A stretch of DNA of 64,000 nucleotides, from NCBI RefSeq assembly GCF_002019765.1, contig NZ_KV917380.1, positions 2,992,167-3,056,166 of the forward strand, in the 5' to 3' direction. Below are positions 1 through 52,185 of this stretch, in pieces. Origin of the DNA: Shouchella oshimensis (lineage in GTDB: Bacteria > Bacillota > Bacilli > Bacillales > Bacillaceae_D). Below the pieces are notes generated by a model, which saw nothing but the letters and a program-made list of their open reading frames with translations, had not been told where the DNA came from and made no database searches. The first letter of the stretch is position 1, and each line of letters begins with the position of its first letter. The position numbers and the translations under genes are program-made.

Positions 1-73
1 ATCTTTGGTCTTGATAAATGACCGAGTAACTTTTCCCCATTGATACATCTAAAGCGACTACAAACTCCATCAT
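1..73 (-). CDS. IS110-family transposase, N-terminal fragment (runs off window)
   Basis: The reading frame is open from ATG ATG at 73-68 to the left edge, 24 codons. The N-terminus MMEFVVALDVSMGKSYSV matches the start of DEDD (RuvC-like) transposases of the IS110 family, where the first catalytic Asp sits in an 'xxDVSxGKS' context; here it is D9. A ribosome binding site (GAGGA) precedes the start by a few bases. Only the 5' end is visible, so integrity of the element cannot be judged. The non-coding DNA upstream (rightwards) is where IS110-group elements carry their RNA guide. The family call rests on a short segment and on remembered similarity. Confidence 0.6.
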   Translation of the reverse strand, partial: MMEFVVALDVSMGKSYSVIYQDQR

Positions 74-99
74 TGTTCCTCTTTTCATTTAGCATTGAA

Positions 100-250
100 A
101 GGTCTTCACTTAATCATTCCGATTCTAATTTCCTCTACACGAGCTCAATGGCCCCAACATACTTAAACCTGATTCAGTAATGAAAGTGAAGAAGCTCGGT
201 TTTTAATACGGATTCTAGATCCTTGAGGCTTAGGTCGAGCTTTCTTTCAC
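100..250 (-). ncRNA. Candidate bridge RNA (seekRNA) of the IS110-type element
   Basis: Upstream of the transposase start the DNA folds into two large adjacent stem-loops on the transposase strand. The first has perfect 7-bp arms at 192-198 and 236-242 (AAGCTCG/CGAGCTT) closing a 37-base loop, which holds a small GGAT/ATCC hairpin at 210-222. The second starts at the very next base: arms 104-111 and 114-118 pair with 184-191 and 179-183 (13 bp with a two-base bulge), closing a ~60-base loop. Two abutting stem-loops with big internal loops, between the left end and the tnp start, are the layout known for bridge RNAs of IS110 elements. Transcription, loop identity and element boundary are inferred. 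Confidence 0.45.
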
Positions 251-276
251 CTCTCACTATACGCCTAAACGAAAAA

Positions 277-315
277 TAGTGGGTAAGATTCATCCGTCGA
301 TGATCTTACCCACTA
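277..315. terminator. Bidirectional terminator-like hairpin
   Basis: A perfect 13-bp stem (277-289 with 303-315; TAGTGGGTAAGAT and its complement) encloses a 13-base loop. An A-run lies on the left side and a T-run follows at about 326-332, so it could stop transcripts from either strand. No complete gene ending here is visible on either side; it may mark the edge of the IS110-type insertion or belong to the interrupted neighbourhood. Confidence 0.5.
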
Positions 316-697
316 ATCTTAGTATGTTTTTTATTCGAGTCCATTTCATGATTGCTGTTATAGCTAATTTAGATAAACCAATAATTATATGAAATGAACG
401 AATTTCCTAACCCATCTATCGCTTTATACATACCAACATTCACCCAATTTCTGAACACTTTCCCTAGGCATTATCTCAGCCATTTCCGCGTAAATTCTCT
501 GCACAATGTCTTCAAGCATATGCTACTCCCACGGGAGCCGTCGCCACTTTCATACGTGTATATAATGACTATTACTAATACATTCATTATGTTTTAAAAA
601 CAGTTATAAAATTGATTCATTCAAAAAAGTTTTTTAAAAAAAGTGATCCATTTTAACATCCCTTGCGTTAGCTTAGTGAAATCAAAACACAAAAGGA
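316..697. other. Intergenic region without a convincing gene
   Basis: No open frame here has both a ribosome binding site and a protein-like composition. Around 520-550 there is a CTCCCACGGGAG palindrome inside a GC-richer patch that resembles pieces of dispersed Bacillus repeats; a related GC-rich patch is present inside the repeat copy at 51987-52185. The final ~130 bases are AT-rich and probably contain the promoter of the acidic surface protein gene that follows. Confidence 0.4.
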
Positions 698-706
698 GTG
701 TTCAAA

Positions 707-2050
707 ATGAAAATAAAAAAAGCATTAATTCCCGTACTAGGTGCATCATTAATTGCCCCATCATTTGTTCAAGGAGCTCAAGCACAAGAAAGCACGTCTC
801 AAGTAACCACACCAGCAGTTGAATTAAGAGGAACACTCGACCACCTTTTATCTGAACACTTTGCGCTTGCTGTTCTTTCTATGCAAAAGCAATACGATGG
901 AGACGACGGTGCTGAAGCCGCACAAGAAGCACTTATGCAAAATGCAGCAGATATGAAACCTGCCATCGCATCACTGTATGGTGACGAAGGTGCTGAAGAG
1001 TTTGACCGTATCTTCTCTGGACATAACGAATACACAGCTGATTATGTTCAAGCTGTAAAAGATGGCGACACAGAAGCGCAAGAAGAAGCATCTAAAATGA
1101 TTGATGGATTTTATGTAGAATTTGGTGAATTTCTTGAAGGCGCAACCGAAGGGGCACTTCCAAGCGACGCAGCAATTGAAGTATTAGACATTCATGAGCA
1201 ACAAGTAGAGGATGCGTTTAATGCTTATGTAGAAGGCGATTATGAGACTGCGTACATGACGTATCGTGAAGGACTCTCACATATGTTTGATATCAGTGCT
1301 GCTTTATCTAACGCCATTGTTGAACAAAATCCTGATATGTTTGAAGGTACCACACCTTTAACAGACGCTGGAAACTTACGATCTGATTTGAGTAATCTTG
1401 TTGCCGAACATTTTGCTCTAGCAACCCTTTCTATGTCTAAAGAATTCAAAGATAGCGAAGATTTCGATTTTGTTAGCTGGGCAGAAGATGAGAATACAGC
1501 CGACTTAAAAGCAACCATTGCGTCTGTATATGGAGATGAAGGCGGAGAGCAGTTCGAACAAATTTGGCAAGGAAATCATATTTTAGCTCAAAGTGAATAC
1601 GTAAACGCTGTAAAAAATGAAGATGATGAAGCTAAAGAGGCTGCAAAAAGCAAATTAAGCACATTTGCTGATGAGTTCGGAATGTTTTTAGATACAGCAA
1701 CAGAAGGAATCTTACCTGCAGCTGATGCTACAGAACTCGTTAACATGCACGAAGATCAAGTATTTACAACCTTTGACCGTTATATAGATGGTGACTATGC
1801 TGGTTCATTTGAAACATTCCGAGAAGGCTTTGCCTTTACATTTGATATTGGTTCCGGTTTAGCTGGTGCCATTGTTGAACAAAATCCTGAAATGTTCGAA
1901 GAGGAAGCTGCAATGCCTGACATGCCGCAAACAGGTATGGGTGGAAGCCAGCAAGGTGTTTCTCTACAATGGATGGCATGGATTCTAGCAGGTGCAACAG
2001 TCGCATTCACTGGCTATTTCGGAGTACGTAAATTCCGCACAAATGCTTAA
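707..2050 (+). CDS. Acidic two-repeat surface protein with sortase sorting signal
   Basis: 447 residues from ATG 707, chosen because AAGGAG lies 8 bases upstream; an in-frame GTG at 698 overlaps that site. Residues 1-27 form a signal peptide ending AQA. Two repeats follow, about 40-213 and 224-398. Each has EHFALA near its start, a YGDEG segment, an IHE/MHE motif and a closing AIVEQNP; the repeats look like all-helical bundles. The C-terminus has MPQTG (406-410), a hydrophobic segment and a basic tail, a cell-wall sorting signal with Met in place of the usual Leu. The protein is strongly acidic. The sortase downstream makes it the likely substrate. It resembles the 'processed acidic surface protein' type paired with Bacillus sortases. 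Ligand or role is unknown; the paired His residues could bind metal, which is speculation. Confidence 0.8.
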   Translation: MKIKKALIPVLGASLIAPSFVQGAQAQESTSQVTTPAVELRGTLDHLLSEHFALAVLSMQKQYDGDDGAEAAQEALMQNAADMKPAIASLYGDEGAEEFDRIFSGHNEYTADYVQAVKDGDTEAQEEASKMIDGFYVEFGEFLEGATEGALPSDAAIEVLDIHEQQVEDAFNAYVEGDYETAYMTYREGLSHMFDISAALSNAIVEQNPDMFEGTTPLTDAGNLRSDLSNLVAEHFALATLSMSKEFKDSEDFDFVSWAEDENTADLKATIASVYGDEGGEQFEQIWQGNHILAQSEYVNAVKNEDDEAKEAAKSKLSTFADEFGMFLDTATEGILPAADATELVNMHEDQVFTTFDRYIDGDYAGSFETFREGFAFTFDIGSGLAGAIVEQNPEMFEEEAAMPDMPQTGMGGSQQGVSLQWMAWILAGATVAFTGYFGVRKFRTNA

Positions 2051-2259: not shown

Positions 2260-3177
2260 GTGCAAATTAGACCACTTCTTGTTCTCTTTCTTTCCCTATT
2301 AACCCTAATCGGCTGTAGCAGTTCTGCTGAAGAATCATTCTCTTCCCAACCTGCTACACAAAATGAAATTGAGCCCCCTGTTCACCTTGATCAGGAACAA
2401 ACGATTGCAGAAGAATTCACGATCCATGCTGACAAAATTGAAGAAGCTTATCATGATTTAAACAAACAAAGCGAGCTTTTCCCTTCTAAATTAAGAATCC
2501 CTGCTTTGGATGTTGAAGCGCCTATTACAGAAGTTGGGCTTTTAGAAAATGGTCAAATGGGCGTTCCTGACAACGGAACAGATGTCGGTTGGTACGAGCC
2601 AGGAACAAAGCCTGGCGGACGTGGAAATGCTGTGCTAGCGGGGCATGTTGATGATAAAAATGGCCCAGCAGTTTTTTTTTATTTGGGTGATTTAGAAGAG
2701 AATGATTCGATCTTCGTAACAGACGATAACGGAGAAGAATTAGAATTTACTGTTGATCGTATTGAAAAATATCCCTATAACGATGCACCATTAACAGAAA
2801 TTTTTGGTTCTACTGATCACAAACAACTAAATTTAATTACGTGTACCGGCACATTTGATCGCCAGACAGGCAATCATGATGAACGACTCGTTGTGTATAC
2901 GTCGTTAGTTGAAGATACAGATGAAACCCCTAAAGAACCGACAGAATTAACAGTTCAGGGGAATTTGTTATCCTGGTATGCTGTTAGAGATGATTACATC
3001 GCCGGCTATCGTGTGTATGAAGTAAGCGAGAACGGAAAAGAGACGCTCGTCGCTAGTATTTCACAACAAGAACGAAAATCGTTTTTAATTGAACACGGCA
3101 ACGCCCGCTATACCGTTAAAACTGTTGATTATTTTGGAAACGAATCAAAGCAAGCACAAGAAAAAGGAGACGCTTAA
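2260..3177 (+). CDS. Class F-like sortase with C-terminal fibronectin III-like extension
   Basis: 305 residues from GTG 2260, 9 bases after TAAGGAGGT. It is a transpeptidase expected to act outside the membrane, joining sorted proteins to the cell wall. The N-terminus looks like a lipoprotein signal (LLTLIGC, Cys19). The sortase domain spans about 75-215 with His129 (AGHVD), Cys195 (ITCTG) and Arg209 (ERLVVY), the catalytic triad. Residues ~228-300 form an extra beta-rich segment (LSWYAVRDDYIAGYRVYE) like a fibronectin III module, beyond the usual sortase length. It follows the gene for an MPQTG-bearing surface protein and is probably dedicated to it. Class assignment (F/E versus D) is uncertain. 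Confidence 0.85.
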   Translation: MQIRPLLVLFLSLLTLIGCSSSAEESFSSQPATQNEIEPPVHLDQEQTIAEEFTIHADKIEEAYHDLNKQSELFPSKLRIPALDVEAPITEVGLLENGQMGVPDNGTDVGWYEPGTKPGGRGNAVLAGHVDDKNGPAVFFYLGDLEENDSIFVTDDNGEELEFTVDRIEKYPYNDAPLTEIFGSTDHKQLNLITCTGTFDRQTGNHDERLVVYTSLVEDTDETPKEPTELTVQGNLLSWYAVRDDYIAGYRVYEVSENGKETLVASISQQERKSFLIEHGNARYTVKTVDYFGNESKQAQEKGDA

Positions 3178-22348: not shown

Positions 22349-22524
22349 GAGGCTGGGACATAACGAAAAGTAGTATTTGAAAAGACGAATAGTCTAAAAT
22401 ATGCTGAGTAGCACCGCTACAGGAGAATCCTTCTGCTAATTTTCATATAAAACAAACGACGAACGTTCCTATTTTCAGGAATGTTCGTCGTTTTGGTCTG
22501 TCTATCTACTTTTGTTCCAGCCTC
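22349..22524 (+). repeat. Inverted-repeat element, copy 1
   Basis: 176 bp bounded by GAGGCTGGGACA and its (one-mismatch) complement TGTTCCAGCCTC. It holds AAAAGTAG/CTACTTTT subterminal arms and an internal hairpin CGACGAACGTTCCT...AGGAATGTTCGTCG. It is nearly identical to 37586-37760 and matches 51987-52185 in the opposite orientation. There is no coding capacity. It begins 14 bases after the stop of the downstream-reading gene at 22538 and may double as a terminator. Confidence 0.85.
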
Positions 22525-37585: not shown

Positions 37586-37760
37586 GAGGCTGGGACATAA
37601 CCAAAAGTAGTATTTGAAAAGACGAATAGTCTAAAATATGCTGAATAGCACCGCTACAGGAGAATCCTTCGCTAATGTTCATATAAAATAAACGACGAAC
37701 GTTCCTATTTTCAGGAATGTTCGTCATTTTGGTCTGTCTATCTACTTTTGTCCCAGCCTC
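37586..37760 (+). repeat. Inverted-repeat element, copy 2
   Basis: 175 bp bounded by GAGGCTGGGACA and TGTCCCAGCCTC, a perfect terminal inverted repeat. Almost identical to 22349-22524 and in the same orientation, with only scattered single-base differences. The internal hairpin is the same. It begins 7 bases after the stop codon of the serine hydrolase gene on the minus strand. Confidence 0.88.
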
Positions 37761-51986: not shown

Positions 51987-52185
51987 GAGGCTAGGACAAA
52001 AGTTGATAGACAGACCAAAATGACGAACATTCCTGAAAATAGGAACGTTCGTCGTTTGTTTTCTATGAACATTAGCGGAAGGAGAATCCGAAGACTCCTG
52101 GGGGATCAGCACGTGTCTGGTGCTACTCAGCATATTTTAGACTATTCGTCTTTTCAAATACTACTTTTCGTTATGTCCCAGCCTC
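51987..52185 (-). repeat. Inverted-repeat element, copy 3 (longer form)
   Basis: 199 bp in opposite orientation to copies 1 and 2. Ends GAGGCTAGGACA and TGTCCCAGCCTC; same internal hairpin (52021-52055). It carries about 25 extra bases (around 52090-52120, AGACTCCTGGGGGATCAGCA) at a point where copies 1 and 2 are shorter, so it may represent the less deleted form. It begins 21 bases after the stop codon of the minus-strand gene at 52207. Confidence 0.85.

Follow-up and report, generated by a model that had tools for sequence, protein, structure and literature searches.

In IS621 and its orthologues, the bridge RNA is encoded upstream of the transposase and carries the left guide on the 5′ side (Durrant et al., PMC11208160). 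Siddiquee et al. (PMC11187229) reported that the guide order is reversed between IS1111 elements and ISEc21, the one IS110-type element tested, and that the non-coding region usually lies upstream in IS110 and downstream in IS1111, with exceptions of position such as ISMtsp17, an IS1111 element with an upstream non-coding region. In the examples examined, these two founding papers pair an upstream RNA with left-first guides and a downstream RNA with right-first guides (statements on cited papers, here and below, refer to excerpts of their texts). Here we describe a 64,000-nucleotide stretch of the Shouchella oshimensis genome (the window) which starts inside an IS110-family insertion sequence; the minus strand of window 1–329 is the left end of this element. 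Comparison with its relatives makes it highly likely that the element encodes a bridge (seek) RNA of about 200 nt between its end and the transposase gene, with left and right guides exchanged. We also consider it fairly probable that this clade of Bacillota elements represents a third bridge-RNA architecture, in which the RNA occupies the IS110 position and both loops have the guide polarity of IS1111.

The boundaries of the element were established by searching the genome with window 1–1500. This search returned ten copies, including that in the window, and the oriented and lined-up copies diverge just past position ~329, where their common part stops and the element ends. Seven of the ten copies contain runs of N of differing lengths, as if repeats were unresolved in the assembly or stretches had been kept out of it. 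The original prediction for this locus, made from the sequence of the window, placed two stem-loops abutting at 191/192 in non-coding DNA just upstream of an IS110-like transposase start, and suggested that their loops could be the guides of a bridge RNA. Folding the minus strand from 323 to 74 reproduced both: the minimum free energy (MFE) is −79.7 kcal/mol, versus −55.3 ± 4.6 kcal/mol for 200 shuffled sequences, none of which folded as well (z = −5.27). As predicted, one stem has 13 pairs with interruptions and about 60 nt between its arms, and the other has 7 bp around a 37-nt loop (199–235). The double stem-loop and the bridge-RNA reading both stood. Absent from the prediction were a third, stronger hairpin (278–314) which precedes the two loops in the RNA sense, the element end at ~329, and a small inner hairpin in each loop; the roles of the loops, the order of the guides and the difference of this order from published upstream-RNA examples were also unmentioned. 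In the 5′ to 3′ direction of the putative RNA the features are:

278–314, minus strand: 5′ stem-loop of the RNA with a 12-bp stem (fold; compensatory changes in alignment columns 18–26/44–52)
236–242, minus strand: stem of the putative target-binding loop, 5′ arm (MFE fold; covariation)
225–230, minus strand: putative right target guide AGCCUC on the 5′ side of the 37-nt loop, reverse complement of GAGGCT (flanks; covariation)
210–222, minus strand: small inner hairpin between the two target guides (consensus columns 112–129)
199–208, minus strand: putative left target guide UAUUAAAAAC on the 3′ side of the 37-nt loop (position-anchored test against the left flank)
192–198, minus strand: stem of the putative target-binding loop, 3′ arm (MFE fold; covariation)
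179–191, minus strand: stem of the putative donor-binding loop, 5′ arm (MFE fold; consensus structure)
156–163, minus strand: putative right donor guide AGUAUGUU, reverse complement of the element left end AACATACT (end comparison)
130–138, minus strand: putative left donor guide GUAgaGGAA, matching the right end GTAGGAA with two extra nucleotides, that is 9 RNA nt to 7 DNA nt (end comparison)
104–118, minus strand: stem of the putative donor-binding loop, 3′ arm (MFE fold; consensus columns 239–244 paired with 150–155)

A consensus structure calculated with RNAalifold from 45 aligned relatives kept 38 pairs, and for 24 of them both partners change among the relatives. It omits the outer stem around the 37-nt loop, since the central CTTCAC has two possible partners, the GTGAAG-like stretches to either side of it. 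Tested apart, this stem covaries in 48 RNAs (own mean run of 5.54 versus 4.03 for permuted pairs, 0 of 2000 permutations). The aligned relatives keep both stem-loops, on which the original prediction had depended, with the exception of locus L149, where the loops are lost. The left ends of L083 and L092 lack the 5′ hairpin and retain both guide loops, which makes them natural tests of the need for this hairpin. Rfam contains no family that matches window 1–700 at E ≤ 1.

To compare the loops with the flanking DNA we collected relatives by a contig scan. The best 80 of 228 hits, 41–99% identical and all from Bacillota by their titles, were joined by L152–L154 from six loci found in a viral scan. 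The resulting 83 loci (L072–L154), the ten own copies and L045, L058 and L067, which have the same flanks as L135, L137 and L134, form a set of 96. Pattern searches located both ends in 84 of these, with one or both ends missing in the other 12; since the right-end pattern requires TTGACT, the conservation of this −35 hexamer is not countable in this set. Eight further loci with short or N-containing right flanks were dropped, and the remaining 76 rows represent 51 distinct RNAs, with identical RNAs collapsed in later steps. Exclusion of L149, which has no target loop, left 50 rows. They contain 41 different 5′ sides, and a left flank is available for 39 of these.

The 5′ side of the first loop (37 nt) is related to the right flank (top strand). 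The mean reverse-complement run between the 5′ side and its own flank is 6.68, versus 4.17 after permutation (0 of 2000, n = 41), and runs of at least 7 occur in 22 of 41 cases. The 28 rows without GAGGCT show the same own mean of 6.68 versus 3.76 permuted (0 of 5000), with runs of at least 7 in 15 of them. Guide and target pair as CAACGTTAT with ATAACGTTG in Streptohalobacillus, as GAACGGTTT with AAACCGTTC in Planococcus (the first two A of the target being the core), and as GGACGGTTC with GAACCGTCC in Neobacillus. Two elements in Evansella clarkii DSM 8720 differ by a one-base matched change, with CAGCCTCT facing AGAGGCTG in L140 and CACCCTCT facing AGAGGGTG in L139. The sum over positions −1 to −5 shows that the 3′ side of the same loop agrees with the left flank (2.99 versus 2.38 permuted, 0 of 2000; 66 flanks, 49 RNAs). 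Of the individual positions, −1, −2 and −4 show the effect by themselves (0, 6 and 13 of 2000), and −3, −5 and −6 do not. Other wrong pairings were reached or exceeded by 690, 1754 and 934 of 2000 permutations. These data support the assignment of the first loop as target-binding, with the right guide on the 5′ side and the left guide on the 3′ side.

The second loop (~60 nt) appears to read the ends of the element itself. Its 5′ side is the reverse complement of the element left end, with a run of at least 7 in 47 of 51 RNAs. Matched changes occur in Limosilactobacillus and Lactobacillus relatives (ACAACCT with AGGTTGT) and in L133 (ACAGACT with AGTCTGT). The 3′ side has the form GTA-xx-RGAA and corresponds to a right end GTARGAA, with the variable base shared as GGAA/GGAA in 18 and as AGAA/AGAA in 27 RNAs. 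The search pattern for this guide missed 5 of 51 RNAs, and one of these, L077, contains GTAGGAA without the two extra bases. A comparable discontinuity is described for IS621, where two extra RNA nucleotides (U159, U160) lie within the seven paired donor bases on the 3′ side of the donor loop (Hiraizumi et al., PMC11208158). The evidence supports a donor-binding role for the second loop, with right and left donor guides also in swapped order. Since both loops covary with targets and element ends, the bridge-RNA reading holds at the level of sequence.

Several observations weigh against this assignment. Among the 28 rows without GAGGCT, 13 have runs shorter than 7, two of them just 3, and the right guide of the window copy itself matches only 6 nt. 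The agreement with the left target is modest and A-rich, and it does not emerge from an unanchored longest-run test (631 of 2000). All guide–target permutations ignore the relatedness of the elements. For the donor guides, 4 of 51 RNAs have a run shorter than 7 against the left end, there is one mismatch at the right end, and in L117 the guide has changed while the element end has not.

The insertion sites point to a specific target. In all ten own copies the right flank, beyond the transposase, reads (n)GAGGCTGGGACA, and the left flank, beyond the RNA, is variable and A-rich. The genome contains 100 sites of GAGGCTGGGACA versus 0 for the reversed control. These sites often occur in pairs that face each other at a distance of about 165 or 263 bases, which places the insertions at one end of a genomic repeat. 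Of 29 repeat-end contexts printed (from 30 loci), 27 are empty, with A in 21, 21 and 18 of these 27 at the last three positions. One empty orthologous site, identical in two related genomes, reads tacacg-AA-ATAAGAGGCTGG, and the own copy at this site reads tataca-AA-ACATACT...GTAGG-AA-ATAAGAGGCTGG. This comparison fits a 2-bp AA core that is present at both junctions. It is a further point of weakness that this core rests on one orthologous site with 89% identity, two other sites being uninformative. At the left junction we assign:

321–329, minus strand: element left end, with the presumed core AA at 328–329 and the right donor ACATACT at 321–327 (copy divergence; empty site)
330–336, minus strand: left target in the flanking chromosome, A-rich (flank comparison)

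Copies of the targeted repeat also occur elsewhere in the window (37586–37760, 22349–22360 and 52174–52185); at 37586/37760 the ends GAGGCTGGGACA and TGTCCCAGCCTC face each other. A search of this repeat against Rfam returned a chance-level microRNA match alone (E = 0.13). At the site orthologous to L003, loci L182 and L183 have no element and no repeat, and contain a terminator-like hairpin (AAAAGCTCTCT...AGAGAGTCCTTTTTT) instead; the targeted repeat may therefore have replaced or entered terminators.

The swapped guide order raises the question as to how this element should be classified. N-free copies encode full open reading frames of 411 amino acids (aa), the start of which lies within the window:

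1–88, minus strand: 5′ end of the IS110-family transposase gene, with ATG at 88–86, or at 73–71 behind GAGGA, and the rest beyond the window (translation)

The protein matches Pfam DEDD_Tnp_IS110 (76 bits, cut-off 29), Transposase_20 (73.8 bits, cut-off 21.3) and NCBIfam NF033542, "IS110 family RNA-guided transposase" (202.7 bits, cut-off 140), which agrees with the gene identity that the original prediction had assumed. Three aligned clade proteins share the catalytic residues D14, E62, D105, D108 and S321. In a sequence search of solved structures, E62, D105, D108 and S321 (E/D/D and SG motif) align to IS621 and D14 to ISCro4, with only the C-terminal part of this alignment significant by itself and the N-terminal part weak. 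The element thus has the marks of the IS110 family in the broad sense: both domains, D-E-D-D with the SG serine, and loops that match target and donor by sequence.

With IS621 the element shares an upstream RNA with a 5′ stem-loop and with the target-binding loop ahead of the donor-binding loop, guides split within each loop, a dinucleotide core and a repeated extragenic insertion sequence. In the donor loop both have a 3′ side that pairs discontiguously, 9 nt to 7, although in IS621 this side binds the other element end. What differs is the position of the left and right guides, which are exchanged in each loop, the apparent core (AA instead of CT) and the transposase, with 411 aa versus 326–328. 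We take the exchange to mean that the geometry of RNA and protein has been kept, with the guides assigned to the opposite element ends. ISEc21 (PMC11187229) resembles the element in its upstream RNA and IS110-type transposase, and differs in that its bottom-strand guide lies 5′ of the top-strand guide. Among the named elements that came up, ISSep2 from Staphylococcus epidermidis is the nearest relative, with a transposase about 40% identical, the same ends AAACATACTAAGATTAG and TTGACTAATCGTAGGAA and the same RNA layout, but with a different target. The literature naming ISSep2 showed no overlap with the guide-RNA literature among the matches listed. Likewise, no paper on a right-first upstream RNA or on this clade was found among the matches listed, a search of titles and abstract starts with preprints and most subscription papers outside it. 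Also outside the comparison of guide orders are ISMtsp17 and six further elements in a figure of Durrant et al.

One might argue that the element belongs to the IS1111 group proper and that its RNA has moved upstream, a matter of classification that is compatible with the mechanism proposed here. Like ISEc11, ISPa11, ISKpn4 and IS4321 (PMC11187229), the element has the top-strand guide 5′ of the bottom-strand guide and partial subterminal inverted repeats at a 7/3 offset, and ISMtsp17 provides a reported precedent for an upstream position. However, its RNA is upstream and not downstream, its transposase has 411 aa versus 330–350, and its inverted repeat is imperfect (9 of 11 positions, versus a near-perfect 11–13 bp). 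Across the clade this repeat matches at 5–10 of 11 positions (mean 7.9, 27 distinct end pairs), with 7/3 giving the best mean among the tested offsets. Since the two ends do not strictly covary, we do not call it the defining IS1111 repeat. The IS110 group has either no such repeat or a short one. In a tree of 28 of 40 proteins (quick search without bootstrap, midpoint root, many deeper forks unsettled), the IS1111 group is separate (SH-aLRT 99), and the clade joins ISSep2 and a Lactiplantibacillus protein (SH-aLRT 100) among IS110-type proteins. The IS1111 label in this tree covers five named elements and one unnamed relative, of which IS4321 alone is so titled and the rest group with it. A hidden Markov model (HMM) of the clade scores a related Bacillaceae IS110 lineage at 233–246 bits, IS621 at 83 and IS1111-group proteins at 35–66. 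Membership in IS1111 is therefore unlikely in our view. The combination of an upstream RNA and right-first guides in both loops with a transposase outside the IS1111 clade appears to hold. The upstream RNA is that of the IS110 group, though the left guide is not 5′ of the right one; the guide order is that of IS1111, with neither a downstream RNA nor a transposase within that clade. From these comparisons we place the element in the IS110 family in the broad sense, and outside the two group definitions tested.

How the exchanged guides may work can be outlined by analogy with IS621. We infer that the element forms a circle, that the RNA is transcribed from the minus strand, and that recombination follows. 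Circularization would join the −35 hexamer TTGACT at the right end to a −10 hexamer at the left end at a distance of 17 nt, and this junction promoter would drive both RNA and transposase in the circle:

316–321, minus strand: candidate −10 hexamer TAAGAT (sequence; 17 nt from TTGACT in the circle)
312–322, minus strand: left copy CTAAGATTAGT of the imperfect subterminal inverted repeat, 7 nt inside the end (9 of 11 match here)

The RNA would link the circle, at its AA core, to a target that reads A-rich-AA-(n)GAGGCTGG, and the RNA–protein complex would recombine the circle at this core, placing the element in one orientation beside a GAGGCTGGGACA repeat end. According to this model AAAGAGGCTGG is the predicted insertion target, dependent on the RNA. 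A sigma-70 consensus scan of window 1–700 returned no promoter (2.8 expected in shuffles), a finding that fits a junction-only promoter and proves nothing.

Complementarity by itself leaves the strand of the RNA unfixed, since DNA complementarity is symmetric, and a guide RNA read from the window plus strand would find the same matches. We regard this alternative as very unlikely: the candidate junction promoter is oriented along the transposase strand, imperfect pairs such as AGUCUC with GAGGCT (L075) are G–U on the minus strand but A–C on the plus strand, and the consensus pairs include many G–U and few A–C, a count that is biased as the minus strand was the one folded.

The position of the RNA upstream of an IS110-family transposase is paired with the canonical IS621 guide order in the two founding papers, and the 3′ side of the first loop gives a weak signal against the right flank (70 of 2000, z 1.9), which is a further point against exchanged guides. 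This canonical order is largely contradicted by the flanks: the 5′ side against the left flank is equaled by 1487 of 2000 permutations, whereas the swapped pairing of the 5′ side with the right flank is reached by 0 of 2000, and the donor guides are swapped as well. We consider it scarcely tenable. The method is capable of finding this order. A second IS110 lineage from Bacillaceae (L049, L052, L063, L068–L071 and relatives) has an upstream RNA and canonical guides. Its left targets are such as CGCACCC or GGGTGC, its right end carries TTAGCTGG, and the 5′ side of its loop matches the left target in the same sense, for example TCGCACCCGT and GGGTGCGT. With 9 of 19 loci, hand-picked, and four distinct, hand-chosen guides, its own pairing ranks first of 24 permutations and the swapped order last, and therefore the test detects the canonical order where it is present. 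Finally, it is hardly conceivable that the hairpins are a mere 5′ leader which blocks read-through transcription or translation, with coincidental flank matches. The stable hairpin 278–314 is indeed followed by ATTTTT in the RNA sense, but a terminator scan of window 1–700 found none and the loops change along with flanks and element ends across species.

If the exchange of guides is correct, the identity of left and right ends would be set by the RNA and could flip in evolution independently of the position of the RNA gene. The clade separates RNA position from guide order. As the canonical order persists in another IS110 lineage from the same family of bacteria that also has an upstream RNA, this change can be studied within IS110-type transposases. 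The clade offers many natural guide–target pairs, among them the two elements of a single Evansella genome with their one-base matched change, and its compact systems, which come from Gram-positive hosts, are candidate programmable recombinases.

Further along, window 698–2050 encodes a protein with two similar halves, an MPQTG end and a membrane-like tail, without a Pfam match. The adjacent gene at 2260–3177 encodes a protein with a sortase domain (PF04203). Judged by these sequence features, the two look like a dedicated sortase and its substrate.
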